From: Fusobacterium mortiferum
Lineage (GTDB): Bacteria; Fusobacteriota; Fusobacteriia; Fusobacteriales; Fusobacteriaceae
Direction of reading: 5' to 3'
Assembly: GCF_016900045.1 (NCBI RefSeq)
Contig: NZ_JACSNP010000009.1
Coordinates: forward strand, 1-64,000
Length of the DNA: 64,000 bases
The notes under the pieces were generated by a model. It saw only the letters and a program-made list of their open reading frames with translations, did no database searches and was not told where the DNA came from. How positions within the stretch are numbered: position 1 is the first letter of the stretch; the number at the start of each line of letters is the position of its first letter. Positions 7,289-25,418 of the stretch are shown in pieces. The position numbers and the translations under genes are program-made.

Positions 7289-7300
7289 ATTAAGATGTGA

Positions 7301-7306
7301 TATAAT
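7301..7306 (+). promoter_or_regulatory. Extended -10 promoter for the first hybrid kinase
   Basis: GATGTGATATAATT carries TATAAT with TGA just upstream. The ATG at 7359 follows a GGGAG ribosome-binding site. Confidence 0.55.
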
Positions 7307-7358
7307 TTATATTAAAGTAGAAAAAATTAATATATAAATTTTTTAGGGAGTAGGAATT

Positions 7359-9872
7359 ATGAAGGAAAGATTGAAAAAGTATATTAGGAAAAGAGCAATA
7401 TTTGGTTTAACAATACTTTCATTTTTTATGATTCTATCTATTTTTTCACTATTAGTAGTGAAAGATAAAATTTTAGATAATATACAGCTAATGGGGAAAC
7501 AAATATCAGAACAATTATTAATAAAAGAGAATGAAAAAATTGGAAATTATGAGATGTTTGTTAGAACTGCAGGAATTTGGTTAAATGACCAAATAGAGAA
7601 ACACAAATCTGATGATGAGTTAAGAGAGTGGATGAAAGAATATACAGATTATATTAATCAGGAGTTAAATACTAAAAAAGTAGAAATCTATGCGGCTATA
7701 GATAAAAAAATTATAGGTGTTACTTATTGGAAAGGAAATGAACATTTTAATGTAGATGAAGCTGAGTGGTATAATTTGGCTATATTGGCTAACGGAAAAG
7801 TTATTTATACAGATACTTATAAAGATATCAGAACAGGAGAGTCGAGTTTTACAGTAGCTAAAAAAATAAATGAGAATGGAGATGTTTTAGCTGTAGATAT
7901 ATATTTAGACGAGTTATCAGAACCAGAATTTTATAAGGATTTACCTCTTAGAAGTTCATATTTTCTTTGTGATGCTAAGGGAAATATAGTTTATAGTATA
8001 CATAGAAGTAAAAATAGTGAAAATGAAATAAATAGATATATTCAAAAGGTAATATATGAGATATTAGATGGAAAACATGATGTAGCAGATTCTTTTACTA
8101 TTGATTTAGAAGGGAAAAAAAGAGGAGTGTATTACTCCTTATCAAAAAATGGATGGATATCTATATTAACAATACCGTATACCACTTTATTAATTGAAGT
8201 AGAGGAATTATATTACTTTTATATAGGAAGCTTCATATTACTTATATTAATAGGAATAGTGTCTTATTATAGAGAAGTTTGCTTGAATAAAAAAATAGAA
8301 GAAACTAATGAAGCTGTAAGAGTTTTAGGAAATTCATATTATGCTATTTATAGAATTGATTTTAAAAAAGAGAGATATTTTATGTTAAAGGGTTCTGGGT
8401 ATATGCAAGAACTATTATCTCGTTCGGGAAATTATCAAATTTTTATAGAAGCTTTAATCGAAGTAATAGAACCAGAAGCAAGGGAAGAATTTAGAAAAGG
8501 ATTTTCATTAGAAAGTATCAGAGATTTAGTTAAAAGAAGAGTAAAGGATTTTGGTGGGGATTTCAAAAGAAAATTTGGTTCAGAATATAAATGGGTAAAC
8601 GTAAGAGTTCTTTATGATGAAGCTTTAAGTATTAATGAAGTTATTTTATGTTTTAAAGAGATTAATGATGAGAAGAAGCAACAATTAGAACACACAGAAT
8701 TACTAAAAGATTCATTGAAAACAATGGAAAAAAATATGAAATCTAGAAATATATTTTTCTCAAATATGTCCCACGATATGAGAACTCCTTTAAACGGAAT
8801 AATTGGTTTATCTGAGTTGGCAAAATCTTATGTAGAAAGTCCAAGTGAAATATTAAAATATCTAGAAAAAATTAATAGTTCAAGTAAACAACTTTTAAAT
8901 CTAATAAATGATATTTTAGATTTGTCTAAAGCAGACTTCGGAAAATATAAATTGAATAGAGAGGAATTTTCTCTAAAAGAGAGTATAGAAGAGAGTCTAA
9001 TTCTTTTTGAAGTAGATGCTAAAAAAATGGAAAAAGATTTTGAAGTTATATATAAAATAGAAAATAATAGAGTTATTGGTGATTTTAATAAAATACGTCA
9101 AATTTTAAATAATATTATCTCAAATGCTTTTAAATATACAAGAGTTGGAGATAAAATAACTTTAACAGTAGAAGAGATAAAAAGAGAAAAGTATTCTAAT
9201 TTCCGTTTTGAAGTAAAAGATACCGGTTATGGAATGACTGAAGAATTTTTAGAAAGAATATTTCTTCCTTTTGAAAGAGAAACAAGATTTGGAGCTAAAG
9301 GTATAAAGGGAACTGGTCTAGGAATGCCGATTGTAAAAAATCTAGTTACACAATTAGAGGGAGAGATTGCTATAACAAGTGAAATAGAGAAGGGAACAAC
9401 AGTTTCTATAATTATTCCATTGGAGATTTCTAAAGAAAAAGTGGAAGTAAAAGTCAAAGAAGAGAACGGATTTGAAACTTCACTTGAAGGAAGAACAATA
9501 TTAATTGCTGAAGATAATGAGATTAATATGGAAATAGCTACAGAATTTTTACAAATGAAAGGATTAAATATAATACAAGCTTGGAATGGATTGGAGGCAG
9601 TTGAGAAATTTGAAGCTTCTAAAGTAGGAAGTATTGATGTTATACTAATGGATATGCAAATGCCAGAGTTAGATGGATGTGAAGCAGCTAAAAGAATTAG
9701 AAATCTAGGTAGAAGTGATGCTAAGAGTATTCCAATAGTGGCAGTAACAGCCAATGCTTTTCCTGAGGATATATCAGCAACAACTTTAGCAGGAATGAAT
9801 GGACATATATCTAAGCCGATAGATTTTAATATATTAGAGAAGAAATTGAAAGAATATTTAAAAAGAAAGTAA
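7359..9872 (+). CDS. Membrane hybrid histidine kinase (Cache-like sensor, PAS-like, HisKA, HATPase, REC)
   Basis: Residues 13-34 and about 285-304 are membrane segments around an extracytoplasmic Cache-like sensor of about 250 residues. A PAS-like linker (about 315-440) leads to HisKA with MSHDMRTPLNG, phospho-acceptor His near 472. The HATPase domain has an N box (IISNAFKYT), DTGYGM and GTGLGM. A C-terminal receiver starts near 715, with phospho-acceptor Asp near 765 in LMDMQMP. The next gene, 8 nt downstream, is a REC-HD-GYP protein, so a relay to c-di-GMP degradation is the natural reading. The signal is unknown. It forms the left border of the fibre island. Confidence 0.92.
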   Translation: MKERLKKYIRKRAIFGLTILSFFMILSIFSLLVVKDKILDNIQLMGKQISEQLLIKENEKIGNYEMFVRTAGIWLNDQIEKHKSDDELREWMKEYTDYINQELNTKKVEIYAAIDKKIIGVTYWKGNEHFNVDEAEWYNLAILANGKVIYTDTYKDIRTGESSFTVAKKINENGDVLAVDIYLDELSEPEFYKDLPLRSSYFLCDAKGNIVYSIHRSKNSENEINRYIQKVIYEILDGKHDVADSFTIDLEGKKRGVYYSLSKNGWISILTIPYTTLLIEVEELYYFYIGSFILLILIGIVSYYREVCLNKKIEETNEAVRVLGNSYYAIYRIDFKKERYFMLKGSGYMQELLSRSGNYQIFIEALIEVIEPEAREEFRKGFSLESIRDLVKRRVKDFGGDFKRKFGSEYKWVNVRVLYDEALSINEVILCFKEINDEKKQQLEHTELLKDSLKTMEKNMKSRNIFFSNMSHDMRTPLNGIIGLSELAKSYVESPSEILKYLEKINSSSKQLLNLINDILDLSKADFGKYKLNREEFSLKESIEESLILFEVDAKKMEKDFEVIYKIENNRVIGDFNKIRQILNNIISNAFKYTRVGDKITLTVEEIKREKYSNFRFEVKDTGYGMTEEFLERIFLPFERETRFGAKGIKGTGLGMPIVKNLVTQLEGEIAITSEIEKGTTVSIIIPLEISKEKVEVKVKEENGFETSLEGRTILIAEDNEINMEIATEFLQMKGLNIIQAWNGLEAVEKFEASKVGSIDVILMDMQMPELDGCEAAKRIRNLGRSDAKSIPIVAVTANAFPEDISATTLAGMNGHISKPIDFNILEKKLKEYLKRK

Positions 9873-9883
9873 AGGAGTAGATG

Positions 9884-10939
9884 ATGAATAATAGAGATAC
9901 GATTCTAATAGTTGATGACCAAGAAATCAATAGAGCAATATTAAGTCAAATTTTTATAGAGAAATATCAAATTGTAGAAGCTGAAAATGGAAAAGTGGCC
10001 TTAGAATATATAAAAAATAATAAAGAAAGAATAGTAGCGATATTATTGGATATAATAATGCCAGAAATGGATGGAATGGAGCTATTAAGAATTTTAAAAA
10101 AAGAAGAACTAGAAGAGAATATTCCTATTTTTTTAATAACAGCAGATACCTCTCAAGAGAAAATGAGAGAGGGATATGAATTAGGGGTAAATGATATTAT
10201 CGAAAAACCATTTGTTCCGTTTTTTCTAGAAAAAAGAATAAATAGTATTGTAGAATTATATAAAACAAAGGAAAGATTAAATAATATAGTTGAACATCAA
10301 GCTGAAATTATTGAGGAGAAAGTAAAGGATATAAAAATTTTGAGTAACACTATGCTTGAAACATTAGCCTTAGCTATTGAGTTTAGAAGTGGAGAGACAG
10401 GTCAACATGTACAAAATATAAGAAAGTTAACTTTTAAACTTTTAAGAAAATTAAAACAGGAAAATTATGAAGAATGTGTAAACTTAACAGATGAAGATAT
10501 AGAAAATATTACAAATGCTTCTATACTACACGATATAGGGAAAATAGCTATTCCAGATGCTATATTAAATAAACCAGGAAGATTTACTCCAGAAGAGTTT
10601 GAAATAATGAAAACTCATTCAGCAAGGGGAGGCGAGATAATAGAGAGGATACCATGTAAAGAAAAAAGACCACTATTTAGATATGCTTATGATATTTGTC
10701 GTCATCATCATGAGCGTTGGAATGGAAAGGGATATCCTGATGGTTTAGTTGGAAAAGAGAATAAAATTTGGGCTCAAGTAGTAGCTTTAGCAGATGTTTA
10801 TGATGCTTTAATAAGTAAGAGATGTTATAAGGATTCATATGAAAGACAGAAAGCTGTTGATATGATAGTGAATGGAGAGTGTGGAGAATTTAATCCAGAG
10901 TTGATAAAAGCTTTTATAGAGATAGAGAAAGAATTATAA
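9884..10939 (+). CDS. Response regulator with HD-GYP c-di-GMP phosphodiesterase domain (RpfG type)
   Basis: The receiver (1-125) carries the phospho-acceptor Asp near 56 in LLDIIMP and a C-terminal Lys in EKPF. A coiled linker leads to an HD-GYP domain with HDIGK (His near 216), HHHERWNGKGYP and LADVYDAL; all metal-binding positions I can see are present, so it should be active against c-di-GMP. The ribosome-binding site AAAGGAG is followed by two adjacent ATGs (9881 and 9884), and the second has better spacing. It is coupled to the upstream hybrid kinase. It should lower c-di-GMP and so act on the riboswitch that begins about 60 nt after its stop. Confidence 0.92.
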   Translation: MNNRDTILIVDDQEINRAILSQIFIEKYQIVEAENGKVALEYIKNNKERIVAILLDIIMPEMDGMELLRILKKEELEENIPIFLITADTSQEKMREGYELGVNDIIEKPFVPFFLEKRINSIVELYKTKERLNNIVEHQAEIIEEKVKDIKILSNTMLETLALAIEFRSGETGQHVQNIRKLTFKLLRKLKQENYEECVNLTDEDIENITNASILHDIGKIAIPDAILNKPGRFTPEEFEIMKTHSARGGEIIERIPCKEKRPLFRYAYDICRHHHERWNGKGYPDGLVGKENKIWAQVVALADVYDALISKRCYKDSYERQKAVDMIVNGECGEFNPELIKAFIEIEKEL

Positions 10940-10958
10940 AAAATATTAATATTTAAAA

Positions 10959-10987
10959 TTGCTTTTTTTAAAGTAATATAGTATAAT
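10959..10987 (+). promoter_or_regulatory. Promoter for the first riboswitch-controlled operon
   Basis: TTGCTT at 10959-10964, a 17-nt spacer and TATAAT at 10982-10987 place transcription start just before the aptamer at about 10999. Confidence 0.75.
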
Positions 10988-10998
10988 AAAAAAAAGAA

Positions 10999-11064
10999 AT
11001 GTGGCAAAATAACGGCAACGTTATGACGCAAAGCTATAGGGTCTTATGGAGACAGCCAGTTGCA
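10999..11064 (+). promoter_or_regulatory. c-di-GMP-I (GEMM-I) riboswitch aptamer 1
   Basis: The order of conserved elements matches the class: GGCAAAA at 11003, a stem ATAACG/CGTTAT capped by a GCAA tetraloop, GACGCAAAGCTATAGGG starting near 11025, a GTC/GAC stem, and AGCCAGTTGC ending at 11063. GCAA at 11004-11007 can pair with TTGC at 11060-11063 to close the aptamer. The following terminator reuses TGC of that closing strand, so the folds appear mutually exclusive. This predicts that ligand binding favours read-through (ON), which is inference. It sits upstream of the pilin/HD-GYP/usher operon. Confidence 0.92.
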
Positions 11065-11104
11065 ACTTAAAAGATATAAAAATCTTTCAAGTTGCATTTT
11101 TTTT
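11061..11104 (+). terminator. Riboswitch 1 expression-platform terminator
   Basis: TGCAACTT (11061-11068) pairs with AAGTTGCA (11089-11096), with AGAT/ATCT inside, followed by T8. The 5' arm overlaps the aptamer's closing strand by three bases. Confidence 0.85.
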
Positions 11105-11133
11105 AATCAAAATAAAAAGTTTAGGAGGATATT

Positions 11134-11595
11134 ATGAAAAAATTATTATTATTATTTGGAATTATGTCTAGCTTATTAATGGGAGAGAATGAAAAATCTG
11201 TAGATGTACAAGTTACAGCAAGGGTAATAAAACCTATTGAAGTTGTAAATAAAAAGGATGTAGAATTTGGAACTATTGTAGTTGGACAAGAGAATGTAAA
11301 AGCAAAGTCAAATGGTTCTATAACTTTTTCTGGAGAGGAAAAAATAAGAGTAAGTTGGAAAGCTGAAGATGGTCACGGATTTAATAAGATAAATGATCCG
11401 ATAGTGGTTACTATAGCTAATGGAGAAAATGAGATTAAGACACTAATATCAGCTGAAGAAGTTTCAAATGGAGTTTTAAACTTAAATGGTACTCAAGAAA
11501 CAATAGTGTTTAGTGGAAAAATAGATAAAGTACCAGAAGTGGCTCCAGGTAGTTATTCTGGAAACTTCACAGTAAGAGCAGAGTATATAGATTAA
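11134..11595 (+). CDS. Secreted pilin-like protein, DUF4402-like (paralogue 1)
   Basis: A signal peptide (about 1-17) precedes a beta-rich domain of about 135 residues. VQVTARVI, DVEFGTIVVGQ and the C-terminal PGSYSGNFTVRAEY recur, with changes, in the proteins at 20044 and 21523, so these three form one family. The pattern resembles DUF4402 fimbrial-type domains. The ATG follows GGAGGA and is the first gene behind c-di-GMP riboswitch 1. I infer a minor or adaptor pilin of the fibre. It lacks two segments found in its longer paralogues. Subunit function is inferred from chaperone and usher genes in the same operon. Confidence 0.75.
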   Translation: MKKLLLLFGIMSSLLMGENEKSVDVQVTARVIKPIEVVNKKDVEFGTIVVGQENVKAKSNGSITFSGEEKIRVSWKAEDGHGFNKINDPIVVTIANGENEIKTLISAEEVSNGVLNLNGTQETIVFSGKIDKVPEVAPGSYSGNFTVRAEYID

Positions 11596-11624
11596 TAAAA
11601 AAGAGAAATAGAGGGAGGATTGAG

Positions 11625-13730
11625 TTGCGAGTGAAAAGATTAGTATTTTATTTTTTCCTAATAACTAGTATAGTTTTTGGGGGAGAAGGGTTAAAGGTAG
11701 GGTATCCTTTAAATCTTACAGATATGTATTTTTACAAAGATTTAGAAAGTATTGCTTATAAAGGAATTTATAGTGATTTATTAAAGGATTTTAATAAAGA
11801 TAGTAAATATGATTTTGAGTATCAAGGTGGAAATGAAACAGGAGATTTAGTTTTAAGAGTAACACAAACTGAAGAAAATGGGAATTATAATTATATAGTT
11901 ACTCCATTTAGTTATAGAGCGGTTATGTTAGTAAATATGGATAGTATGTTTACTAAGGTAGATGATTTATATGGACTAACAGTAGGATATGTAAAAAATC
12001 AAAGAGGAATAGAAGCGATTGAAGGTAGAAATAAAGGAGTAGAGTTTTATAAGACTTCTTTTGAAAATGAAAATCAAGCAATATTAGCTTTAAAAAATAA
12101 AAAAGTAGATGCTATTGTTTTAAAAGATTGGAATGAAAGTAATCCATTAGAAAAGAATTTTAGAGTAATTAGTACTGTACTTACAAAGGAACAAATTGGA
12201 GTTAATAAAACAAAAGTTGATTTATATGAAAGTCTAAAAAAATATTTTGAAACTTTAAATGATACGACTCTTAACGAGATTGTTGATAAAAATAGAATAG
12301 CTTTTTATACATACCTTTTAAAAGATACTCCAGATTATAGTTTTATAAAGGAGAAATATAAGAGTTTAAAAATATCTTTACCAAAAGATAAATATTATTT
12401 ACCAATTTACTATGAAGAAAATGGAATATATAAAGGGTTATTATTTAATATCTTAGATGATATAGAAAAAATAGTAGGAATACCCTTTGAAGTTATAGCT
12501 GATAGAGAAAAAGCTGATATAAGAGGATTATATATAAGTAAGGAAACAGATGCAAATCTTGTAGCTACAAAACCTTACTATAAAACTGACATAGCTGTTG
12601 CAAGTACAAAAAAATCTTATTTGATGACAGAGATAAGCGATTTGGATAACTCAAAAGTTATAGTAGTTGAAAATCAAACTGTAGGAAAGTATGTAGAAGA
12701 TAGAACTGAGGGAGTAACTTTGGTGACAGCTCCTACAATTCAAGAGGGAGTAAATAAACTAATTGCTGGAGAGGGAGAATATATAGTTTCATATAGTAAC
12801 CCTTTAAGAGGGGTAATTTTAAATACCTTTGTTGATAAAAAGGTGGGAATTATAGGGAGAATTAATGAAAAATTTGGTATCTCTATGGGAGTAAAAGCAG
12901 ATGATGAAGCACTATTTAATATAATTAATACAATATTAAATAGTTATTCAGTAGAAGAAACAACATTAGAAACAAATAGAACAGCTCAAGTAATAATAAA
13001 AACAGACTATTCTATGGCTGCTAAAATTGGAATTCCATTAGCAATTATAGCTCTTATATTAGCAATAGCTTTAAGAAAGGCTGTAATTAATAAAAGAAAA
13101 GCAGAAAAAATAGGTAATACTTTATTAGAAACAATGGTAAAGGTAAATCAATTAAAACAAACAGAGTCAGGATTACATGCTAAAAGAATATCTCTTCATG
13201 CTGAAGTTTTAGGAGAGAAGTTAGGATTATCAAAAGATTTAATAGATGGAATGAAACAATATGCAATAATCCATGATATTGGAAAAGTTATTGTTCCAGC
13301 TGATATCTTAAATAAGAGTGGAAAGTTAACTCCAGAAGAGTTTGAAGTAATGAAAAAACACTCAGAGTTTGGATATGAGATTATAAAAGAACTTGAATTA
13401 GGTAAGATAGCAGAAAATGTAGCTAGATATCACCATGAAAAATGGAATGGAAAAGGATATCCATTAGGATTAAAAGGAGAAGAGATTCCATTAGAGGGAA
13501 GAGTAATAGGTATTTTAGATGTATATGATAGTATGAGAGAGGATAAAGTATATAAAAAAGGATTATCTCATCAAGAAGCGATTGAAATTATTAAAAATGA
13601 GAGCGGGGTAAGTTTTGATCCAAAAATAGTAAAAGTATTTTTAGAAAATGAAAAACTATTTGAAGATATCTATAACAAAACTTCTGGAAAAATAGATCTA
13701 GTAGAAGAGTACTATAGAATAATGAAATAA
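11625..13730 (+). CDS. Transmembrane c-di-GMP phosphodiesterase: tandem solute-binding-like sensors plus HD-GYP
   Basis: A signal peptide is followed by two periplasmic solute-binding-protein-3-like modules (about 22-225 and 235-455), a BvgS-like tandem flytrap layout. One membrane segment (about 468-486) leads to a cytoplasmic HD-GYP domain with HDIGK (His near 550), YHHEKWNGKGYP and LDVYDSM, apparently intact. It should degrade c-di-GMP in response to a periplasmic ligand. It sits inside the operon controlled by a c-di-GMP riboswitch, implying feedback. The start is a TTG at 11625, six bases after GGGAGG; a GTG two codons on is possible but worse spaced. Confidence 0.9.
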   Translation: MRVKRLVFYFFLITSIVFGGEGLKVGYPLNLTDMYFYKDLESIAYKGIYSDLLKDFNKDSKYDFEYQGGNETGDLVLRVTQTEENGNYNYIVTPFSYRAVMLVNMDSMFTKVDDLYGLTVGYVKNQRGIEAIEGRNKGVEFYKTSFENENQAILALKNKKVDAIVLKDWNESNPLEKNFRVISTVLTKEQIGVNKTKVDLYESLKKYFETLNDTTLNEIVDKNRIAFYTYLLKDTPDYSFIKEKYKSLKISLPKDKYYLPIYYEENGIYKGLLFNILDDIEKIVGIPFEVIADREKADIRGLYISKETDANLVATKPYYKTDIAVASTKKSYLMTEISDLDNSKVIVVENQTVGKYVEDRTEGVTLVTAPTIQEGVNKLIAGEGEYIVSYSNPLRGVILNTFVDKKVGIIGRINEKFGISMGVKADDEALFNIINTILNSYSVEETTLETNRTAQVIIKTDYSMAAKIGIPLAIIALILAIALRKAVINKRKAEKIGNTLLETMVKVNQLKQTESGLHAKRISLHAEVLGEKLGLSKDLIDGMKQYAIIHDIGKVIVPADILNKSGKLTPEEFEVMKKHSEFGYEIIKELELGKIAENVARYHHEKWNGKGYPLGLKGEEIPLEGRVIGILDVYDSMREDKVYKKGLSHQEAIEIIKNESGVSFDPKIVKVFLENEKLFEDIYNKTSGKIDLVEEYYRIMK

Positions 13731-13758
13731 ATGCAATAGGCAAAAAGAAGGTGAAGAC

Positions 13759-15189: not shown

Positions 15190-15213
15190 TCAGATAAAAG
15201 GGGGAGAAGGGAA

Positions 15214-16032
15214 ATGAAAAGATTATATTGTATAATACTAAGCTTGATATTATTTTCTTTTTCTTATGGAGACAATGAGTATACAGCTTATATAAAAAGA
15301 GTTAACTCAATTGGTATTTTTATAGGAGATACAACACAAGGTGTAGAGTATAATTTTGATATATGTATTGAACCAAGAAATAATGGAAATGCTTTAGAAG
15401 ATGATTATTTTATTAAAGAAGATAAAGCAGAGAATAGCAAAATAATTATGACTCTAGATAAGATACAATTGCTTGAAGGAAGACCAAAATATTACTTTCC
15501 TATTAACAGTGATAATAAGTTAGATGAGATGAAATTGAAAGTGACTGGAAGAATAAATTTAAAAAATGGAATTGAGAATCTAGTTGGTACAGAGAGAATA
15601 AAAATTGGTGATATACAAGAAAAAAATCATAAAAGAGGAGTTTATTTAACATTTGACTATAGTATACTAAAAAAAGAGGATACAGTAAGTTTAAGAGTTG
15701 TAAGAGATATGGACTTAGGAGTAGCTGTAGCTGGATATCCATTAAGAAGTAGTAAACCAGCTATTGTAGAGATAAAAGGAATAAAAAGTAATGGAGCAAG
15801 AGTAGAAGTAGAAAAAGAAGTAGCAATCATAAATGAAGCTAAGAAAAGCTCTTTAAATGTAATGCTTGACGTAGAAAATTATAAAGCACGTCAAACTAGT
15901 GATAAATCAGTTATAGAGTTAAAACCAACAAATGATTCTGTAGAGATAAAAATAAATGGATATAGTAAAACAGAAAAAAATACGCCATCTGGAGTATATA
16001 AAGGAGCTTTTAAAGTGAGAGTGATTTACTGA
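15214..16032 (+). CDS. Secreted two-part protein with pilin-like C-terminus (tip-adhesin candidate)
   Basis: A signal peptide (about 1-19) is followed by an unrecognised beta-rich region (about 20-160) and a C-terminal part (about 160-272). The latter contains DLGVAVAG and ends SGVYKGAFKVRVIY, echoing the pilin-like paralogues in this operon. An N-terminal private domain joined to a C-terminal pilin-like domain is the usual plan of chaperone-usher tip adhesins. Its position just before the usher, with a 1-nt TGATG overlap, supports a subunit role. The sequence alone does not show binding activity. Confidence 0.65.
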   Translation: MKRLYCIILSLILFSFSYGDNEYTAYIKRVNSIGIFIGDTTQGVEYNFDICIEPRNNGNALEDDYFIKEDKAENSKIIMTLDKIQLLEGRPKYYFPINSDNKLDEMKLKVTGRINLKNGIENLVGTERIKIGDIQEKNHKRGVYLTFDYSILKKEDTVSLRVVRDMDLGVAVAGYPLRSSKPAIVEIKGIKSNGARVEVEKEVAIINEAKKSSLNVMLDVENYKARQTSDKSVIELKPTNDSVEIKINGYSKTEKNTPSGVYKGAFKVRVIY

Positions 16033-18662
16033 TGTGGAAACTAAAAAATAAGTTATCAATCATAGGGATAATTGTTTTTTTATTAGGAACTCAGACAGTG
16101 TATACTAAAAATACAGAGAAAGATATCGAGGATGTATATTTAGAGATAAGAGCTGAAAGATTAAATGATGATTTCTATATGATAAAGTATGATAATAGTA
16201 AAAATGAAGCATATATAGGGTTAAAATCATTTTTCTTCTTTTTACAATTATTTAGTTTAGATGTAAATACTCAAAACTATACAGTTAGTGGAATGATAAA
16301 CGGAAAAGATATATCTACAAGATTTACTCAAGATGAAGCCTTTGTAGATGAAAATGATGAGTTATATGTAAAAAGTAAAGCATTAATTGAAAAAATGGAT
16401 TTTGAGTATCTAACTTTAGACATGGAAACTTTAGTCTTAGATGTAAATCCTAATTTCGTATTACCTTATGAAGAGAAAGAGCAAGGAAGAGTAGAGAGAC
16501 TTAGATTAGAGGAAAGAAAAGTACTTGAGGGAGAGCAATTTGATTTAGAGATGAAAAGAAAATTGATTTCTCCAGGGATATTGAAGTTAAAGTATGACTT
16601 AAATGATGTAAAAAATAGTGATGATTATAACTTTAGTTATGAGTATGGTTCACAACTTCTATATGGTGAACTTTATGTATCTGGAGATATAAAGCCTGAA
16701 AGTGAATTAAATGAGATCAATTTAAAATATACTGATATTATAGAAGATAATGATTTAACAATAGGATATTTAGATACTACTTTTCCTAGTTTTGCAAGTT
16801 TAGAGTCAGATTTAATAGGGATAAGTTTGGATAACTACGATACATATTCACAAACAGAGAATGGAATAACAGTAATTAGAGGAGAAGCAGATGATGCGGA
16901 TTCGATAGAGTTATATAGAAATGGAATGTTAGTAGATTACTTAACTTCTCCACCAAGAAATTTTGAATTTAGATTGGCAGATGGAAGTACTAATGCAAGA
17001 TATTTATTAAAAATATATTATAAAAATGGTGGAATAGAGGAGAGATATGTATATTCTTTAAATGATATGGATGCTCTTGCAAAAGGAAAATGGAAGCCAG
17101 TTATTCAAATAGGAAAAACAAAAGAAAAAGGAGATTTTCAAGCATTAGTTAAGAGTTACTATGGGGTAACAGATAAGTTTACTCTAGGAGCAGGATATCT
17201 GAATTTAATTAACTCAGATGGAAGAAACTTGAAAATGATAGAGAATGACTTTATCTATAATACAAGACATCTGAATTATCCAACTTTAATTAACTTTACG
17301 AATTATTATGAAGTAGATAAGAATGAAGAGAGTTATAATTTAAGTATTAGTCAAAATATAAATGATTATGAACTAAAATTTACAGAGGAAAAGTATTCAC
17401 CATTTGTTGTAGGAGAAGAGGGAACAAAAAAATATGATTCGTTATCTTTGTACAAGCCTTTTGAATATAATTCATATGAAATAGGAGTGTCTAAAACTAC
17501 AGAGTTAATGAGATCCTTTAATACAAATGAGAGCATAGAAAATACTACAAAAGATATTTATGGTGCTTTCTATACATCCTATTTTAATCCATGGTCATTT
17601 TCTTTTAGAGTAACTAGAACTCTAAGTGGAGACTATAAATATATAACTTATGAACCAAGTATCTCTTATTCGGGTTGGGCACTTATAGTTTTAGATGCAG
17701 AAATAACAAAGTATGATGATTATAGTAAATATTTTGAATCATATGGATTAAGAGCAGATAAAAGAAGAGTAGAGATATTGAAAGATAGATTGTATATGGA
17801 TCTAGGTTTAGAAGCAAAATTTGTAAAGGGAGTTACTTCAGGAAATAAAGATAGCTTTGTTTATGGAATTACATTCAGTATGGATTTAGAAGATTATATC
17901 AATATAGATGTAAATAGCGATATAGAGGTTGCAGACAATGGAAAAAGTACTTCTACTACTGGTTTAACAGTAACTAAAGCAATAAATTTAGCAACTCCTT
18001 TAGCAAAAATGGATAATGATGTATCTGTTAATAACTATACAATTCAAGGAAAAGTTTTCTTAGATAGAAATGGAAATGGAGTATATGATAAGAAAATAGA
18101 TGTTCCTTTGGAGGGTGTTGGAGTTTTAATAAATAACCAAGAATTTTTAACAGATAAGTATGGAAACTATCTAGGAGATAATTCAATTATAGACGAGATA
18201 ATAACACTAGATGTAAATAGAAAAACAATAGATCCTATGTATAAAAATTCTAAGGGAACTATAAGAATAAAAGCACGTAACTCTAACTCTTTAAAGGTAG
18301 ATATTCCGATCGAAGTAGTATCAATGCTAACTGGAAATATTTGGAATACAGAAGACTTTACAGAGAGAGAGTTTACTCAAAATATTGTTATGTCAAGTAT
18401 TCAATTAGAAAAAGATGGAAAGGTTTATAAAGAGATAGACCCAGAGTTTGATGGATTATTCTTCTTTGACGATATTCCTCCTGGAAAATATAATATGAAA
18501 TTTATTTATTTAGGACAGGAAAATGTTAAGTTTTCACCTGAAAATATAGAGGTAAATGTAAAATTACAAGATCCAGATGAAGGAGAGTATTTTGAAGGTT
18601 TAGATACTAAGATGGTAAGAGAAGAAGAGGTAGAAAATACAGAGGATATTAATAATTATTAA
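16032..18662 (+). CDS. Divergent fimbrial usher-like outer-membrane protein
   Basis: 876 residues with a signal peptide (about 8-25). The N-terminal region (about 30-150), with ELYVKSKALIEKM and LVLDVNP, resembles the periplasmic domain of alternate (CS1/TcfC-type) ushers. A beta-barrel region follows, interrupted near 285-345 by a plug-like module (ELYRNGMLVDYL, YLLKIYYKNGGIEERYVYS). The C-terminal part (from about 672) has VFLDRNGNGVYDKK and an FFFDDIPPGKY motif, a Cna-B/carboxypeptidase-like fold common at usher ends. It would secrete and anchor the pilin-like subunits. It is too divergent for me to name the class confidently. Confidence 0.78.
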   Translation: MWKLKNKLSIIGIIVFLLGTQTVYTKNTEKDIEDVYLEIRAERLNDDFYMIKYDNSKNEAYIGLKSFFFFLQLFSLDVNTQNYTVSGMINGKDISTRFTQDEAFVDENDELYVKSKALIEKMDFEYLTLDMETLVLDVNPNFVLPYEEKEQGRVERLRLEERKVLEGEQFDLEMKRKLISPGILKLKYDLNDVKNSDDYNFSYEYGSQLLYGELYVSGDIKPESELNEINLKYTDIIEDNDLTIGYLDTTFPSFASLESDLIGISLDNYDTYSQTENGITVIRGEADDADSIELYRNGMLVDYLTSPPRNFEFRLADGSTNARYLLKIYYKNGGIEERYVYSLNDMDALAKGKWKPVIQIGKTKEKGDFQALVKSYYGVTDKFTLGAGYLNLINSDGRNLKMIENDFIYNTRHLNYPTLINFTNYYEVDKNEESYNLSISQNINDYELKFTEEKYSPFVVGEEGTKKYDSLSLYKPFEYNSYEIGVSKTTELMRSFNTNESIENTTKDIYGAFYTSYFNPWSFSFRVTRTLSGDYKYITYEPSISYSGWALIVLDAEITKYDDYSKYFESYGLRADKRRVEILKDRLYMDLGLEAKFVKGVTSGNKDSFVYGITFSMDLEDYINIDVNSDIEVADNGKSTSTTGLTVTKAINLATPLAKMDNDVSVNNYTIQGKVFLDRNGNGVYDKKIDVPLEGVGVLINNQEFLTDKYGNYLGDNSIIDEIITLDVNRKTIDPMYKNSKGTIRIKARNSNSLKVDIPIEVVSMLTGNIWNTEDFTEREFTQNIVMSSIQLEKDGKVYKEIDPEFDGLFFFDDIPPGKYNMKFIYLGQENVKFSPENIEVNVKLQDPDEGEYFEGLDTKMVREEEVENTEDINNY

Positions 18663-18677
18663 AAAGGAGTAATAACA

Positions 18678-19583
18678 TTGAAGAATTCAAATTTAGTGAA
18701 AATTTTTATGATTATGTTTCTATTTACCTGTTCTTATGCTGAAGTAAACAGAGTTGCAAAACTTAGTGATAAAACAGTAAAAAATAATGTAGTATATCTG
18801 AAAGGGGAGAAAACTCCCTTTTCGGGTAAAATACAAGATGGGGGAATAGAGCAAGAGTACAGAAATGGAATTAAAAATGGAATATTTAAAGGAAAAATTC
18901 AAATAGATGGAAAAGATTACCTATATGAAGGAAAATATGTTGAGGGGATCAAGGACGGAATTTGGACTTTAAAATATTTAAATGGCAAAAAAAGAGCTGT
19001 AGTTGAGTATAGTTATGATAAGCCAGTAAATAAATGGAAATACTACTATGAAAATGGGCAATTAGAAAGTGAAGAAACTTTTGATAAGAGTGGAGTACTT
19101 TCAGGAGATGTTGCAGTTTATGATGAAGAGGGAAATGTGTTGAAAAAAGCCAATTATTTGAATGGTTTTTTACAAGGAGAAGTAGTTTTTTATGAAAGTA
19201 AAGGGGTACTAGATACAGTAGCAAATTTTGATAAAGGAAAACTTAATGGAAAAGTAGAAGTTTTTTCGATAAATAGTTTACAATTAGAGGGAAATTATAA
19301 AGACAATAAAAGGGTATCAGTATGGAAACTTCATTATACAAGTGGTGATTTAAAGGTTACTGTTCCATATAGAAATGGATTAAAATCTGGAAAGTCTATT
19401 GTATATGATAGAGCAGGAGGAATAGTTCAAGTAAACTATTATAAAGATAACAATGAAGTTACAGCAGATGGAAAATTAATAAGAGAAGCAAAACTATTTA
19501 AGGATGGAATAGTAGAAAAATTTAAAAAGTTTAATGCTAATCTAAATAGCTTAAAGGTCAATAAAGCTTTATCAGAAGTTTAG
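18678..19583 (+). CDS. Secreted MORN-repeat (YwqK-like) protein
   Basis: A signal peptide (about 1-21) precedes about ten short repeats of the MORN_2 type, such as YENGQLESEETFD, YDEEGNVLKKANY and YKDNKRVSVWKLHY. Such repeats are often annotated YwqK-family antitoxin, but no toxin gene is adjacent. Here it lies between usher and chaperone in a fibre operon, so an envelope role such as assembly or anchoring is more likely; no function is shown. It starts at TTG 18678, eight bases after AAGGAG. Its stop codon touches the ribosome-binding site of the next gene, indicating translational coupling. Confidence 0.8.
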   Translation: MKNSNLVKIFMIMFLFTCSYAEVNRVAKLSDKTVKNNVVYLKGEKTPFSGKIQDGGIEQEYRNGIKNGIFKGKIQIDGKDYLYEGKYVEGIKDGIWTLKYLNGKKRAVVEYSYDKPVNKWKYYYENGQLESEETFDKSGVLSGDVAVYDEEGNVLKKANYLNGFLQGEVVFYESKGVLDTVANFDKGKLNGKVEVFSINSLQLEGNYKDNKRVSVWKLHYTSGDLKVTVPYRNGLKSGKSIVYDRAGGIVQVNYYKDNNEVTADGKLIREAKLFKDGIVEKFKKFNANLNSLKVNKALSEV

Positions 19584-19594
19584 TGGAGGAAATA

Positions 19595-20044
19595 ATGAAA
19601 AAAATAATACTTATATTTATCTTAGCAATATTCTCAACATTGAGCTATTCACTGAACTTCTCGATAGCTCCTACAAAATTTGAAGTAGATTTAAATAAAA
19701 GAGAGACACAAGAAGCTTTTATAATTAATAATACTTCTTCTCCTCTAAGAATAGAGGTATATTTAGATACACTTGAGGGATATGAAGAAAAAAATTTAAA
19801 CTCTAATATAGTAATTTTCCCTAAAAAAGTATCAGTGAGACCAGGGGGAAAACAGACAGTAAGATTTAGAGTTAAAGATACAGAGAACCTAAAAGATGGA
19901 GAATACAGAAGTTTATTAGTATTTAAAGAGATTCCAAAGGATGTAAAAACTACAGGAACTAATAAAAGTGATGAGATAATTACTGAATTTTCATTTATAA
20001 CTGAATTAGCGGTTAGAATAATAGGAGTAAAAGGAGAGAAGTAA
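19595..20044 (+). CDS. Half-length PapD-like periplasmic chaperone (N-terminal domain only)
   Basis: The signal peptide (about 1-19) is followed by one immunoglobulin-like domain with FSIAPTKFEVD, FIINNTSSPLRIEVY, PGGKQTVRFRVK and GEYRSLLVFKE, the subunit-binding first domain of pilus chaperones. It ends at 149 residues, just after that domain; the paralogue at 20586 continues for a second domain of about 90 residues. An in-frame GTG at 19583 is rejected because GGAGG lies between it and the ATG at 19595. The stop overlaps the next ATG by one base (TAATG). It may be a functional one-domain chaperone or an eroded duplicate. Confidence 0.82.
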   Translation: MKKIILIFILAIFSTLSYSLNFSIAPTKFEVDLNKRETQEAFIINNTSSPLRIEVYLDTLEGYEEKNLNSNIVIFPKKVSVRPGGKQTVRFRVKDTENLKDGEYRSLLVFKEIPKDVKTTGTNKSDEIITEFSFITELAVRIIGVKGEK

Positions 20045-20565
20045 TGAAGAAGATATTAAAAATATGCTCACTTCTATTTACTATTTCAACTTTATCCTTA
20101 GCTCTTGAAAGCTATGTAAGTACTACAGATGAAGAGGTTGAAGCAAGATTAAAGATAAGTGCTACAGTTGTTGAGGATGTAAGTGTAGAAACTCAAAGTG
20201 TTGAATTTGGAAGTGTAGTATCGGGAGTAGAGAGAAGTAATCCCAAAGTAGATGGGAAGATAAACATTACAGGAGAGATTGGAAGAGGGATAACTATTGC
20301 AATTAACCACAATGGAAATAGAATAGATATGGCAGATAATAGCAAACAGGTAGAATTGAAAAATTCTAAAGATGAGAAATTAGAAGGAATAAGTTATTAT
20401 CCAGAGTTTTCTAGTGGTATAGAGAAAAAGAAGATAACAGGAAATAAATTTATATTAAATAGTAGAACGGCTACTATGAATGTCGGTGGAAAATTAGTAG
20501 TTCCAAAAACAATAAATACAGGAAACTATACTACTAATATGGCAATAAGAGTTTACTATAATTAA
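20044..20565 (+). CDS. Secreted pilin-like protein, DUF4402-like (paralogue 2)
   Basis: 173 residues with a signal peptide (about 1-20). ISATVVEDVSVE, SVEFGSVVSG, a GKINITG strand and a closing INTGNYTTNMAIRVYY align with the proteins at 11134 and 21523. It sits between the half and full chaperone genes, coupled to the former by a 1-nt overlap, which supports a secreted-subunit role. The domain assignment to DUF4402 is by resemblance. It belongs to the riboswitch 1 transcript and does not have its own riboswitch, unlike paralogue 3. Confidence 0.75.
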   Translation: MKKILKICSLLFTISTLSLALESYVSTTDEEVEARLKISATVVEDVSVETQSVEFGSVVSGVERSNPKVDGKINITGEIGRGITIAINHNGNRIDMADNSKQVELKNSKDEKLEGISYYPEFSSGIEKKKITGNKFILNSRTATMNVGGKLVVPKTINTGNYTTNMAIRVYYN

Positions 20566-20585: not shown

Positions 20586-21332
20586 ATGAAAAAGTTAACA
20601 GCGAGTTTATTGTTTTTTATTTTAGGTGTTATGTCATACTCTTTAAACTTTACTGTTTATCCAACAAGATTTGAGGTAGATAGTAAGAAAGTAACTACTG
20701 AAGAGATGACAATTGTAAATAATACAAATGGTCCACTGAGAGTAGAGATATATCCAGAGGGGGATATAGAGTTTGGAGAAGAGTATAATTTGAATTCAAA
20801 TATTAAACTTTTCCCTAAGGCTGTAGCAGTAAAACCAGGAGGTAAGCAAGCTGTAAGATTTAGAGTAAAACCTGACACAAAAATGAAAGATGGAGAGTAC
20901 AGAAGTTATATTACATTTAAAGAGATACCTTATGATATAAAATCTACAGTTAGTGAGGAAAAGAAGGAAGCTGAAGGGGTAACAACAGGAATTAACTTTA
21001 TAACAGAGATATCAATACCAGTGTTTAGTATAGGAGAGAATAAGATAGTAAAGGGAGAGATGTCGAACTTTAAGTATCATTATGATGGCAAAGATATGGC
21101 ATTTTCTTTTGATACAAAGTCTGAAGGGAATACTGCTGTAATCTATAAATATAGCTTAAAAATAGATGGAGAGGAGCCTTTAGAGGGAATACTTGGTTAT
21201 AGCAAAAGAGATGGAGAAGGAAAGTTAGAAATAAGTATGGAACTTAAAGAGGGATTAAAAGGAAAGAGTGGAACATTGAGAATTTATGACCAAGTTAATA
21301 AAGAGTATTTTAACCAAAAAATAAAATTATAA
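20586..21332 (+). CDS. Full-length PapD-like periplasmic pilus chaperone
   Basis: 248 residues. The signal peptide (about 1-18) precedes the first immunoglobulin-like domain (about 20-145), with NFTVYPTRFEVD, IVNNTNGPLRVEIY, PGGKQAVRFRVK and GEYRSYITFKE. The second domain (about 150-248) ends in GTLRIYDQ. Domain 1 is close to the half-length protein at 19595, so these arose by duplication. Chaperones of this fold hold pilin subunits in the periplasm and hand them to the usher. It is the last gene before riboswitch 2. Only an A-rich stretch follows, with no obvious terminator. Confidence 0.88.
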   Translation: MKKLTASLLFFILGVMSYSLNFTVYPTRFEVDSKKVTTEEMTIVNNTNGPLRVEIYPEGDIEFGEEYNLNSNIKLFPKAVAVKPGGKQAVRFRVKPDTKMKDGEYRSYITFKEIPYDIKSTVSEEKKEAEGVTTGINFITEISIPVFSIGENKIVKGEMSNFKYHYDGKDMAFSFDTKSEGNTAVIYKYSLKIDGEEPLEGILGYSKRDGEGKLEISMELKEGLKGKSGTLRIYDQVNKEYFNQKIKL

Positions 21333-21377: not shown

Positions 21378-21400
21378 TAAAACATAAAGAAAGAAGAATA

Positions 21401-21466
21401 TTTGGCAAAGCAGTGGAAACGCTGTGACGCAAAGCTATAGGGCCTTCTAAAATGGCAGCCAGTTGC
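21401..21466 (+). promoter_or_regulatory. c-di-GMP-I (GEMM-I) riboswitch aptamer 2
   Basis: GGCAAAG, a CAGTG/CGCTG stem with the canonical GAAA tetraloop, GACGCAAAGCTATAGGG, a GCC/GGC stem and AGCCAGTTGC follow in order, sharing the core with aptamer 1. A hairpin terminator starts at the very next base. Unlike riboswitch 1, the terminator arm does not overlap the closing strand, so the switching direction cannot be read off. It controls the pilin-like gene at 21523. Confidence 0.92.
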
Positions 21467-21497
21467 AGGATAATTTAATTAAATTATCCTTTTTTTA
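21467..21497 (+). terminator. Riboswitch 2 expression-platform terminator
   Basis: AGGATAATTT and AAATTATCCT pair around an AATT loop and lead into T7. The stem abuts the aptamer. Confidence 0.85.
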
Positions 21498-21522: not shown

Positions 21523-22020
21523 ATGAAAAAATTATTATTATTAGCAGGAATCTTAGTAGTTGGAGCAGCATCTTTTGCAGGAGGAGCTGATTGGAGTAGC
21601 AATTCAGTAGAAAAAGAATTACAAGTAACAGCAACTGTTATAGAGAATTTAAAAGTACAGACACATGATGTTGAATTTGGAAGAGTAGCAGCTGGAATGC
21701 AAGGTATACAACCAAAGAATAATGGAAAAATAGAAGTTGAAGGAGTAAAAGGAGCTAGTGTAAAAATAGAGTTGAGACATGGAGAAAATGAAGTGAAAAA
21801 AGGAGAAGAAATTGCTTTTGGGGAAAAAGGTTCGCCTATAGTAAGAACTCCTTTATATTATACTCCAGATTTTGAAGAAAAGGTAATAACTTTAAATGGA
21901 GATGGGTATGGAAGTGTTGATCTTCAAGGTAGTTTAAGAGTGCCAGAAAATACTCCAGTAGGAGATTATGCTGCAGTTTTAACTACTAAAGTTTATTATA
22001 CAGGGTTTGCTAATGAATAA
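21523..22020 (+). CDS. Secreted pilin-like protein, DUF4402-like (paralogue 3, candidate major subunit)
   Basis: 165 residues with a clear signal peptide ending near ASFAGG. The mature part has LQVTATVIENLKVQ, DVEFGRVAAGMQG, GKIEVEG and the closing TPVGDYAAVLTTKVYY, matching paralogues 1 and 2. It has its own consensus promoter, its own c-di-GMP riboswitch and a GGAGGG ribosome-binding site, followed by a terminator. A separate strong unit is what one expects for the most abundant fibre subunit, so I propose it as the major pilin; that is inference. Confidence 0.78.
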   Translation: MKKLLLLAGILVVGAASFAGGADWSSNSVEKELQVTATVIENLKVQTHDVEFGRVAAGMQGIQPKNNGKIEVEGVKGASVKIELRHGENEVKKGEEIAFGEKGSPIVRTPLYYTPDFEEKVITLNGDGYGSVDLQGSLRVPENTPVGDYAAVLTTKVYYTGFANE

Positions 22021-22097: not shown

Positions 22098-23177
22098 ATG
22101 AGAAAATTAGGATTATTATTAGGAACATTAGTACTAGGAGTATTAGCTTCAGCTAAGGAAATAAAGCAAGCTCCACCAGAGATATTAGTAGAAGAACCAG
22201 TAAAAGTTATAGAAAAAGAGATAATAGTATATAGAGACAGGGAAGTAGATAATAGCTTTAGACCTAATGGTGAGTTAAATCTTGAGTATAGATATTATGG
22301 AGATACAGAGGGACAAAATAAAAATAGTTGGAATGGGGATAATAATAATTATTCAAGAACTCAATTAGAAGGAGTTATAAATACAACTGAGAGTCAAAAG
22401 TTAGAGTTTAGAATAAGAGATTATAACAATTTAAATGAAGATGAGGTAGATAGACCTAATTATACAGAGACAAGGTTAAGATACTACTTTGATCATGGGG
22501 TATTGTCAGAAAGCAAAATTAATTTTACTTCAAGACTACACTATATGAAAAATGGGAATGATAACCATGATGAACAAGAGATAGAGTATCAAGCAAGATT
22601 TAATTTTGTAGATTACCTATTTAGCAATGAATATGTAAAACCTGTAGATCTAACAATAGCTCCATATTATAGATATACTTGGAATCAAAATAATAGTTCA
22701 GACTATGACAATGAGTTAGGGCTTTATTTTAACTTTCAATATGATTTACCATTTGGTTTTGGTACTCAACTAGAAGTAGATACATTTGGATTTCATTTTT
22801 ATGGAAATGATAAATATGGAAATGTAATTGATGAAGATGGCAAATATAGTGATAAAAATACAGATTTAGCTGTAAAATTTTATATTACTCAAAATACTAT
22901 ACTATATAGTAACGAGAACTTAGTGTTAGATTTTTTTGTTGAAGCTGGATATGACCCATATACATGGACAGCGAAACATGAGAAGGGAACTGATGCTACT
23001 ACTTACTCCTTAAAAGCAGATCCACAGCTAAGATTATTTTATAATGTAACTCCAGAGTATCAAGTTTATACTTTAATTGGAGCAGAGTATAGAAATTGGG
23101 ATATAACTACAGAATCCACAGCTAAAAATTGGAGATGGCAACCATTTATGGCTTTAGGATTTAATATGGTATTTTAA
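22098..23177 (+). CDS. FomA-family major outer-membrane porin
   Basis: 359 residues. A signal peptide (about 1-19) is followed by a short proline-rich, charged segment ending in IIVYRDREVDNSFRPNG, which is characteristic of fusobacterial FomA-type porins, then an all-beta barrel with alternating aromatic residues ending in GFNMVF, a terminal-Phe outer-membrane signature. FomA is a voltage-dependent porin and adhesin in Fusobacterium nucleatum. Here the gene follows the riboswitch-controlled pilin after a terminator, so it might be partly under c-di-GMP control. I give no symbol because Fusobacterium carries several paralogues. Confidence 0.9.
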   Translation: MRKLGLLLGTLVLGVLASAKEIKQAPPEILVEEPVKVIEKEIIVYRDREVDNSFRPNGELNLEYRYYGDTEGQNKNSWNGDNNNYSRTQLEGVINTTESQKLEFRIRDYNNLNEDEVDRPNYTETRLRYYFDHGVLSESKINFTSRLHYMKNGNDNHDEQEIEYQARFNFVDYLFSNEYVKPVDLTIAPYYRYTWNQNNSSDYDNELGLYFNFQYDLPFGFGTQLEVDTFGFHFYGNDKYGNVIDEDGKYSDKNTDLAVKFYITQNTILYSNENLVLDFFVEAGYDPYTWTAKHEKGTDATTYSLKADPQLRLFYNVTPEYQVYTLIGAEYRNWDITTESTAKNWRWQPFMALGFNMVF

Positions 23178-23294: not shown

Positions 23295-25418
23295 ATGAAA
23301 AACAAATTTTTTGATATGAAAATAATGATAATAGGGATATTATTTACTATATTAATAGTTATCTTTCAAATACATAAACATAGGACAGTTGAAGAGAATC
23401 AAACTAAGAATGTGGGAATAATATTAACAAATAAATTAAAAGCTAAGATGGAAGTTTTAGAGGATGTAACAGAGTATTTGAAAGAATTTACTATAATAAG
23501 AAAGGGAAATTTATCACAAGAGGATTTTTATAAAATATCTAGATATTTATATTCACTTTATAAAGATAATGAAATTATGGGGATATTTTATTTAAAAGGT
23601 GGAAAAGTTGAATATATATATCCATTGAAAAGAAATGTAGGAACATTAGGTTTAGATATTTTTAAGGCTGAAGATAGGAAAGAAGATGCTTATTTAGCAA
23701 TGGAGAAAAAACAAGCAGTAGTATCTGGACCATATGACTTATACCAAGGTGGTAGAGGATTAATTATAAGAAATCCGATTTTTGTGAAAGAAGAGGATGG
23801 TAGTGATAAATTTATTGGGTTTAGTGTTGTTATTGCAAAATTTCCAGATTTTATAGATAGTATTGACTTAAATGAGATTTCAGATTATAACTATAAAATA
23901 ACTACATTTTCAAATGAAGAGGAAAAACTAATTGCTAAAAGTAAAGGTGAGATGACATCACCTAGAGTATTTACTGTAAACATTTTTAATAATAAGTGGA
24001 AAATAGCCTTAGAACCAATTAATTTTCTGGGGAAATTAGATGGAGTTTTGGTTGTGTTTGTGAGTTTGATTATTTTGACTCTAATACTATCAAATCTTTC
24101 ACATAGATATAAAGAAAATCGTATGTTACTTGAAGAGCTAGAATTAGAAAAGGAGTTATTTGTAGTAGCTTTAGAAAATAGTAATATGGTTATCTTTACA
24201 TATGATGATGAAACTGGAAAAATAATTTTTAGAAATAAAAGATATTTTATAGAGGAATATAGTAATTATACAGAGATATACCCTGAAATGTTAGAGGGAA
24301 GTCTAATTATAGAAGAGGGAAAAGAAAAACTTATAGAGATATTCTCGGCGATAAAAGGTGGAAGAAAGAGTGCTTCTTGCATAGTTAAAAAGAAAAATGA
24401 AAAATATGGATATATTTGGGAAAAAATAACACTGCTAAATCCCTTTGTTGATAAATATGGTATGAGAAAAATAATTGGAGTAGTTGAAAATATAACTGAT
24501 TCTAAAGAAAAAGAGTTAAAGTTAGAAAGAGAAAGACATTATAAGAATGCCTTGAATGAAGGTTCTGTATTTTATTTAGAGGGAAATATTACAGCAAATA
24601 GCATACTGTTATTAAATGTTGAAAATTTTGAAGAGAATAAAATAGAGTATGAGAGTTTCATAAAAAAATATATAAAAAATAATATTTATGAAGATGACCA
24701 AAAATGGCTAGAGAAAGCTTTAAGTATAGAAGGATGTAAAAAAAAATATTTTGAATATGGGAGTAAAGCTTTTACAGTAGAGTATCGTTGTCTTCATGAA
24801 GAGAGATATATTTGGGTAAGAGCAAATATTTATTTTACAGCGACTCCTAAAAATGATGAGTTGAATATTGTAATAGTAGTTAGAGATATAGATGAAGAGA
24901 AAAAAAGGGAGATGTCTTTAATAAATCAAGCAGAAAGAGATATGTTGACAGGATTATACAATAGAAGTGCTATAAAAAATAGAATAAATGATTTTTTCTC
25001 TCATGATGTAAGAAGTGGAGCATTCTTTATTTTAGATTTAGATAATTTCAAAAGTATAAATGATAACTACGGTCATCAATATGGAGATATTGTTTTAAAA
25101 GATACAGCAAAAATTTTAGTAAATAGTTTTAGAGAAGAGGATTTAGTAGCTAGATTAGGTGGAGATGAGTTTGTTGTTTTTATGAAGGATATTAAAAGTA
25201 GTGAAATTGCAGAAAGAAAAGCAAAATTATTAACTACCGCTTTGAAAAGAGTTTATAAAGAGCAAGGAAAAAAAATAGAGATAAGTGCTTCAATAGGAGT
25301 AGTAGTAACTTTCAATAGTAAGAAAGATTTTGAAACTCTTTATTTAGCTGCAGATGACTTAATGTATGATATAAAAAGAGAAAAGAAAGACGGATATAAG
25401 TTGGTTGTAAATTTTTAA
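23295..25418 (+). CDS. Membrane PAS-GGDEF diguanylate cyclase
   Basis: Two membrane segments (about 8-27 and 248-266) enclose an extracytoplasmic sensor of about 220 residues, Cache-like by size and layout. Two PAS-like modules follow (about 285-410 and 420-540). The GGDEF domain begins at DMLTGLYNR and has the intact GGDEF signature at about 622-626 and SIGV later. It should make c-di-GMP, the ligand of the two upstream riboswitches, and is the only cyclase in the island. The next gene, a hybrid kinase, starts 18 nt downstream, so both are probably cotranscribed. Confidence 0.92.
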   Translation: MKNKFFDMKIMIIGILFTILIVIFQIHKHRTVEENQTKNVGIILTNKLKAKMEVLEDVTEYLKEFTIIRKGNLSQEDFYKISRYLYSLYKDNEIMGIFYLKGGKVEYIYPLKRNVGTLGLDIFKAEDRKEDAYLAMEKKQAVVSGPYDLYQGGRGLIIRNPIFVKEEDGSDKFIGFSVVIAKFPDFIDSIDLNEISDYNYKITTFSNEEEKLIAKSKGEMTSPRVFTVNIFNNKWKIALEPINFLGKLDGVLVVFVSLIILTLILSNLSHRYKENRMLLEELELEKELFVVALENSNMVIFTYDDETGKIIFRNKRYFIEEYSNYTEIYPEMLEGSLIIEEGKEKLIEIFSAIKGGRKSASCIVKKKNEKYGYIWEKITLLNPFVDKYGMRKIIGVVENITDSKEKELKLERERHYKNALNEGSVFYLEGNITANSILLLNVENFEENKIEYESFIKKYIKNNIYEDDQKWLEKALSIEGCKKKYFEYGSKAFTVEYRCLHEERYIWVRANIYFTATPKNDELNIVIVVRDIDEEKKREMSLINQAERDMLTGLYNRSAIKNRINDFFSHDVRSGAFFILDLDNFKSINDNYGHQYGDIVLKDTAKILVNSFREEDLVARLGGDEFVVFMKDIKSSEIAERKAKLLTTALKRVYKEQGKKIEISASIGVVVTFNSKKDFETLYLAADDLMYDIKREKKDGYKLVVNF

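Follow-up and report, generated by a model that had tools for sequence, protein, structure and literature searches.

A class I c-di-GMP riboswitch and a flytrap-HD-GYP protein in one fibre operon of Fusobacterium mortiferum: a probable self-limiting output module

What becomes of a c-di-GMP signal when the operon that it controls also encodes an enzyme predicted to degrade it? The question is raised by a locus of Fusobacterium mortiferum at which a protein with two tandem flytraps, a membrane helix (TM) and an HD-GYP domain is encoded in an operon behind a c-di-GMP riboswitch. A preliminary description of this DNA had pointed out that such wiring would give negative feedback if c-di-GMP turned the operon on and a double-negative loop if it turned the operon off. 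We think it probable that the locus is a self-limiting c-di-GMP output module, in which an ON riboswitch drives the fibre operon together with a sensor phosphodiesterase. The synthase, both intact phosphodiesterases and both riboswitches (RS1 and RS2) all lie in one 18-kb stretch, at 7.4-25.4 kb of the window, by which we mean the whole DNA analysed (64,000 nucleotides). The features, in window positions, are as follows.

7359..9872, + strand: hybrid histidine kinase with a dCache-like periplasmic part, HisKA, HATPase and receiver; a separate upstream transcription unit
9881..10939, + strand: response regulator-HD-GYP protein, metal and catalytic residues intact; the genome's second intact phosphodiesterase
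10959..10987, + strand: probable RS1 promoter (TTGCTT, 17 nt, TATAAT), read directly from the sequence
10993..11067, + strand: c-di-GMP-I riboswitch aptamer RS1, 56.3 bits; G at the ligand position (column 11), C92 present
11061..11104, + strand: RS1 terminator, stem TGCAACTT...AAGTTGCA (11061-11096), then T8
11134..11595, + strand: DUF4402-like pilin, operon gene 1 (E 1.7e-4, under the curated cut-off)
11625..13730, + strand: tandem-flytrap-TM-HD-GYP protein, operon gene 2, 701 aa
13759..15189, + strand: SBP_bac_5 (peptide/nickel-type) periplasmic binding protein (SBP5)
15214..16032, + strand: DUF4402-containing fibre subunit (E 6.4e-5, slightly under the cut-off)
16032..18662, + strand: putative usher-like protein, 876 aa, without a family match
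18678..19583, + strand: MORN_2 repeat protein, kept in the operon across relatives
19583..20044, + strand: PapD_N chaperone (28.5 bits, cut-off 23)
20044..20565, + strand: DUF4402 pilin (25.6 bits, cut-off 25.2)
20586..21332, + strand: second chaperone-like protein, resembling the chaperones of relatives, without a family match
21394..21470, + strand: c-di-GMP-I riboswitch aptamer RS2, 59.6 bits; terminator stem 21467-21490
21523..22020, + strand: pilin read from RS2, with a strong terminator behind it at 22051-22078
22098..23177, + strand: FomA-type porin
23295..25418, + strand: CHASE-GGDEF diguanylate cyclase, GGDEF motif and RxxD I-site readable

RS1, like RS2, scores well above the RF01051 gathering cut-off of 35 (E 2.5e-8 for RS1), so that riboswitch 1 of the preliminary description is real. 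Its aptamer starts 6 nt past the end of the TATAAT box of the probable promoter, which is missing from the promoter scan list because its -35 element matches at only 3/6 positions. The fibre operon spans 11134-21332, and the flytrap-HD-GYP gene is indeed its second gene, separated from the pilin by a 29-nt gap in which the scan placed no terminator. The label "fibre" for this operon needs a small qualification: it is backed by DUF4402/SCPU-like pilins and by the protein at 19583-20044, a PapD-like chaperone as expected of a chaperone-usher operon, and at 16032-18662 no usher family of Pfam or NCBIfam was matched. The term chaperone-usher-like is thus drawn from synteny and size; an AlphaFold2 model of the usher-like protein from a two-row alignment (mean pLDDT 35.3) was too poor to use. 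The MORN-repeat gene sits between the usher-like and chaperone genes and is kept there in eight orthologous loci. RS2 (21394-22078) appears to drive a one-gene pilin transcript apart from the phosphodiesterase operon.

How general is this wiring? The search set comprised 61 genomes, namely our own and 60 relatives, Cetobacterium among them, which together with the FomA-type porin points to the Fusobacteriaceae; the flytrap-HD-GYP protein was matched in 28/61 and RF01051 in 20/61. Orthologs at 38-43% identity occur in G001, G002, G003, G005, G008, G013, G026 and G036, and all eight genomes share the gene order riboswitch, (pilin), flytrap-HD-GYP, SBP5, ..., usher-like, MORN, chaperone. In G035 a further, ninth ortholog (35% identity) lies on a contig of 3981 bases that carries no riboswitch. 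The wiring from riboswitch 1 through the pilin and the sensor phosphodiesterase to the remainder of the fibre operon is therefore supported in the window and conserved in relatives.

Conservation also bears on whether the flytrap-HD-GYP gene is largely expressed from its own promoter, such that co-transcription from RS1 would matter little. Promoter-like sites precede the gene in G002 and G003, where, as in G001 and G008, the gap between pilin and enzyme is longer and AT-rich, and the 109 promoter-like matches in 7000-24000 (101.2 expected) are indistinguishable from chance. Against this reading stand the short, terminator-free gap in the window and the loci of G013, G026 and G036, in which the phosphodiesterase gene is gene 1, directly behind the riboswitch and 44-52 nt past the aptamer. 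An own promoter had been raised in the preliminary description as a counter-argument; no promoter-like site stands out, and with the gene first after the riboswitch in three relatives we consider this explanation quite unlikely.

Beyond the orthologous loci, the linkage was assessed for near-full-length flytrap-HD-GYP proteins, defined as rows that begin at or before query residue 196 (n=23). Matches consisting of flytrap fragments only were dropped (G010, G032, G021, G047 and one each of G002, G003, G008 and G014), as were two short HD-GYP fragments of G038 from the association test. A same-strand riboswitch lies within 1 kb upstream of 12/23 of these proteins and is absent by the same test for the other 11, G035 among them; only 2/99 domain-only HD-GYP matches have a riboswitch within 3 kb. 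Fisher's test gives 7.8e-9 for this comparison and 2.9e-5 when it is confined to riboswitch-bearing genomes (12/23 vs 2/40), values that overstate what is a strong case, since orthologous loci share descent and are not independent. Relatives of the whole flytrap-HD-GYP protein, at 27-29% identity, are also present in the gammaproteobacterium Aliivibrio (L006, L007, L008).

Is the enzyme likely to act on c-di-GMP? The open reading frame at 11625-13730 is intact and starts with TTG; the same GGGAGGA (11613-11619) also precedes an in-frame GTG at 11631. A signal peptide and a single membrane helix before the output domain can be read from the sequence. Pfam places HD_5 at residues 510-668 (E 6.6e-31) and SBP_bac_3 at residues 259-445 (E 1.4e-6); the first flytrap is weak by sequence, its half scanned alone giving Phosphonate-bd at 0.0022 and SBP_bac_3 at 0.023, and the second half scanned alone gives SBP_bac_3 at 3.5e-4. 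In the AlphaFold2 model (mean pLDDT 74.7, pTM 0.51) a pair of flytraps, one long helix and the HD-GYP domain can be made out. The model's top Foldseek matches include the periplasmic tandem flytraps of BvgS (4q0c) and EvgS (9ilw) and the entry 5gzs ("Structure of VC protein"), which we take to be CdgH of Vibrio cholerae, and the HD-GYP structures 4mcw (Z 21.1) and 4r8z (Z 20.9) match it as well. The tandem flytrap-TM-HD-GYP architecture proposed earlier is confirmed.

The nearest solved sequence is 4mcw (E 1.3e-40), and alignment to it gives the metal and catalytic residues as E514, H518, H550, D551, K554, H579, H603, H604, G611-Y612-P613 and D632, mapped by way of the PmGH residue numbers. 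Every tested residue of the HD-GYP pattern E/H/H/D/H/H/H/D, the catalytic K and GYP is intact, the E standing four residues before the first His. The pattern of metal ligands is that of PmGH (4mcw/4mdz/4me4), an HD-GYP phosphodiesterase with a tri-nuclear metal centre whose N-terminal part differs. An inactive HD-GYP domain was the other objection foreseen in the preliminary description; with all these residues present, the window protein would be expected to degrade c-di-GMP.

It is possible that the HD-GYP protein instead acts mainly on the fibre machinery, as its receptor or scaffold, the flytraps and SBP5 sensing the envelope state or fibre subunits, with a minor effect on c-di-GMP. Two comparisons lend this some weight. 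The congener G010, in which no GGDEF, EAL, HD-GYP (HD_5) or RF01051 match was found, encodes a 481-aa flytrap-flytrap-TM protein that ends after the membrane helix (L105:1492-2937); SBP5 comes next and pilin-like genes adjoin. The sensing half and SBP5 thus persist there without c-di-GMP, and the HD-GYP half is absent along with it, a pattern that fits feedback and equally hints at a second task of the periplasmic pair in fibre biology. The second is the paralogue in our own genome (L158:8956-11079, G000:C272), which lies beside a second fibre operon with SBP5 behind it and no RF01051 match. It keeps the fold, and its HD-GYP domain is degenerate: the E514 position is taken by R, HDIGL stands where HDIGK is expected, and GYP lacks its proline. 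That the copy without a riboswitch is the degenerate one also speaks for feedback. A homologue of SBP5 is found behind the flytrap-TM gene in all three settings, namely the orthologous loci, the paralogue and G010. A mainly structural role is nevertheless rather unlikely, as HD, K, HH and the final metal D are conserved in all 12 aligned riboswitch-linked copies (the first metal position being E in 6 and D in 6, and GYP reading GYG in 2), and the flytrap-HD-GYP protein is the sole HD-GYP protein of G001, G003, G005 and G008, all four of which have EAL proteins. Intact sites are also found in flytrap proteins without a linked riboswitch (L156, L157 and L160 with E; L154 and L155 with D), so intactness is not confined to the riboswitch-linked copies.

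The sign of the proposed feedback depends on the direction of RS1. The 5' arm of the RS1 terminator takes in the last P2 base of the aptamer and C92 (11063; Vc2 numbering), the stem beginning two bases before it. The terminator therefore needs the aptamer's 3' strand and cannot fully coexist with the ligand-bound aptamer, which predicts that RS1 is an ON switch. The terminator stem of RS2 starts one base past C92 (21466), which it abuts and does not include, and its predicted ON direction is less clear. When RS1 was folded freely, the enforced aptamer lay 2.1 kcal/mol above the minimum, a gap such that ligand-free energies do not prove switching.

To place RS1 in its family, 74 riboswitches were examined (72 in relatives and our own two), of which 58 are of a short-stem type and 16, which fall outside the ON test, of a long-stem type. 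Terminator sharing was scored at every T-run, with shuffled sequences and swapped tails as controls. C92 falls inside the terminator in 46/58 short-stem riboswitches (mean of the shuffles, 24.3), and a 5/5 fit between an aptamer tail and the terminator of the same riboswitch is seen in 33/58, compared with 412/2508 tests with the tails of other riboswitches. Nine of the 58 scored "no" or "none"; these counts are given as called, although by eye at least two of the nine, G026:C49:55326 and G036:C57:3929, have a shared stem and were called wrongly because a longer fold further downstream was preferred. The 12 enzyme-linked riboswitches comprise nine short-stem ones (C92 "in" for eight, abutting for one) and three of the long-stem type. 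Several long-stem riboswitches have, past the aptamer, a terminator-like hairpin around a Shine-Dalgarno sequence and start codon; in G014 and G033 (e.g., G014:C14:25181) the hairpin behind the c-di-GMP-I aptamer encloses those of the flytrap-HD-GYP gene itself.

According to PMC9262584, the Geobacter pilM riboswitch, an ON switch for cGAMP, has an aptamer and terminator that are mutually exclusive and have the A strand in common, much as a strand is shared in RS1, and the OFF switch Cd1 differs from it; ligand and controlled genes differ from those here. If RS1 were an OFF switch, c-di-GMP would terminate the operon, and the double-negative loop might respond in a sharp, two-state manner. PMC11477304 describes the class I riboswitches of C. 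difficile as OFF switches, and in an illustrative model with arbitrary parameters a rise in synthesis from 0.5 to 1 made the OFF loop jump from 0.16 to 9.41 and moved the ON loop in a damped way from 0.72 to 1.22, with no bistability for either. An OFF switch, however, needs a separate terminator and antiterminator, none of which is seen in RS1, whose terminator uses the aptamer's 3' strand; terminators that do so are common in the family and match that strand in sequence. An OFF direction is accordingly unlikely. The preliminary description did not settle the direction; ON is favoured both by structure and by comparison, and with RS1 predicted ON the loop would be one of negative feedback, not double-negative.

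Another question is whether the ligand is c-di-GMP at all. The ligand would be decided by whether column 11 holds G or A, a change from G to A being linked to cGAMP binding. Two riboswitches linked to the same enzyme in relatives (G008:C1:2669408 and G005:C20:32245) have A in place of G at this ligand-contacting position. RS1 and RS2 both have G, and the sole GGDEF protein looks ordinary at the residue that marks cGAMP synthases. Although PMC7266159 documents cGAMP-sensing variants among RF01051-like RNAs, it is very improbable that 3',3'-cGAMP is the ligand here.

The module belongs to a sparse c-di-GMP network. Our genome (2.04 Mb, 99.95% complete, 283 contigs) holds one GGDEF protein, that at 23295..25418, which we infer to make c-di-GMP, three HD-GYP proteins (one degenerate) and two RF01051 matches; searches of it for EAL, PilZ and MshEN found none of each, and receptors of other kinds may be present. 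It gave no match to the c-di-GMP-II riboswitch either, in a search in which no positive control rang. Within the genus, GGDEF proteins occur in 7/11 genomes and RF01051 in the same seven; G007, which lacks them, is only 71% complete. In L153 (G004:C3, ~3875-5992), from a congener with one GGDEF protein, the only two RF01051 matches lie just downstream of the GGDEF gene and precede hydrolase-like and outer-membrane-protein-like genes.

How might such a module work? The CHASE-GGDEF protein would supply c-di-GMP, and c-di-GMP-I riboswitches stand before the fibre operon (RS1) and before one further pilin (RS2). Binding of c-di-GMP would hold the 3' strand of the aptamer away from the terminator and allow read-through, a step that is clear for RS1 and less so for RS2. 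The second gene of the RS1 transcript would then yield a membrane-anchored sensor that has a pair of flytraps in the periplasm and whose HD-GYP domain is intact, and, if the enzyme hydrolyses c-di-GMP, expression of the operon would lower its own activating messenger. The strength of this brake may be set by the flytraps, and probably also by the co-encoded family-5 binding protein. That a periplasmic ligand is tied to fibre expression, as the preliminary description held, is plausible on the modelled architecture, and the usual Arg clamp of flytraps seems absent from the window protein, as judged by reading its pockets by eye. More speculatively, the locus could be a complete and near stand-alone circuit with one synthase, a fibre as output and a sensor phosphodiesterase as brake, RNA being the sole known kind of receptor found, in which the flytraps and SBP5 may read fibre assembly (e.g., peptides of unassembled subunits) and so meter fibre by fibre status; this extension is rather doubtful.

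The component parts are of known kinds. As described in PMC5431781, CdgH of V. cholerae likewise places two tandem periplasmic flytraps before a c-di-GMP enzyme, but it is a tandem PBPb-TM-GGDEF protein that makes c-di-GMP, where the window protein carries HD-GYP; its R109, which holds the amino-acid carboxylate, appears by eye to be replaced in the window protein. The sensor kinases BvgS and EvgS have the same tandem flytrap periplasmic part and a kinase output in place of HD-GYP. In C. difficile, a c-di-GMP riboswitch also turns on a pilus operon, that of the type IV pili (pilA1; PMC6366702), but the riboswitch is of class II, whereas the arrangement here pairs an aptamer of class I with a chaperone-usher-like fibre and places a phosphodiesterase within the operon. 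The built-in negative feedback proposed here resembles that of trigger phosphodiesterases, which, according to PMC5052742, are both enzyme and receptor; here the RNA would sense and the enzyme would be its product. PMC7266159 relates that many associated genes concern the messenger's production, degradation or signalling networks, and papers disagree on how common such riboswitch-enzyme wiring is. Among the titles and opening lines of abstracts in the open-licence full-text literature, no c-di-GMP riboswitch fibre circuit was described for Fusobacteria. What appears new is the combination of a class I riboswitch predicted to be ON, a sensor phosphodiesterase in the same operon, a fibre output and one synthase.

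The coupling to one sensor phosphodiesterase has been kept across genera along with the fibre operon. Counting the one synthase found, two degrading enzymes that are intact and a pair of riboswitches, the c-di-GMP network of this genome would be unusually small for a natural one. Its input, its RNA receptor, its output and its feedback can each be removed singly, which opens a direct test of how a system with riboswitches as its known receptors restrains its output.
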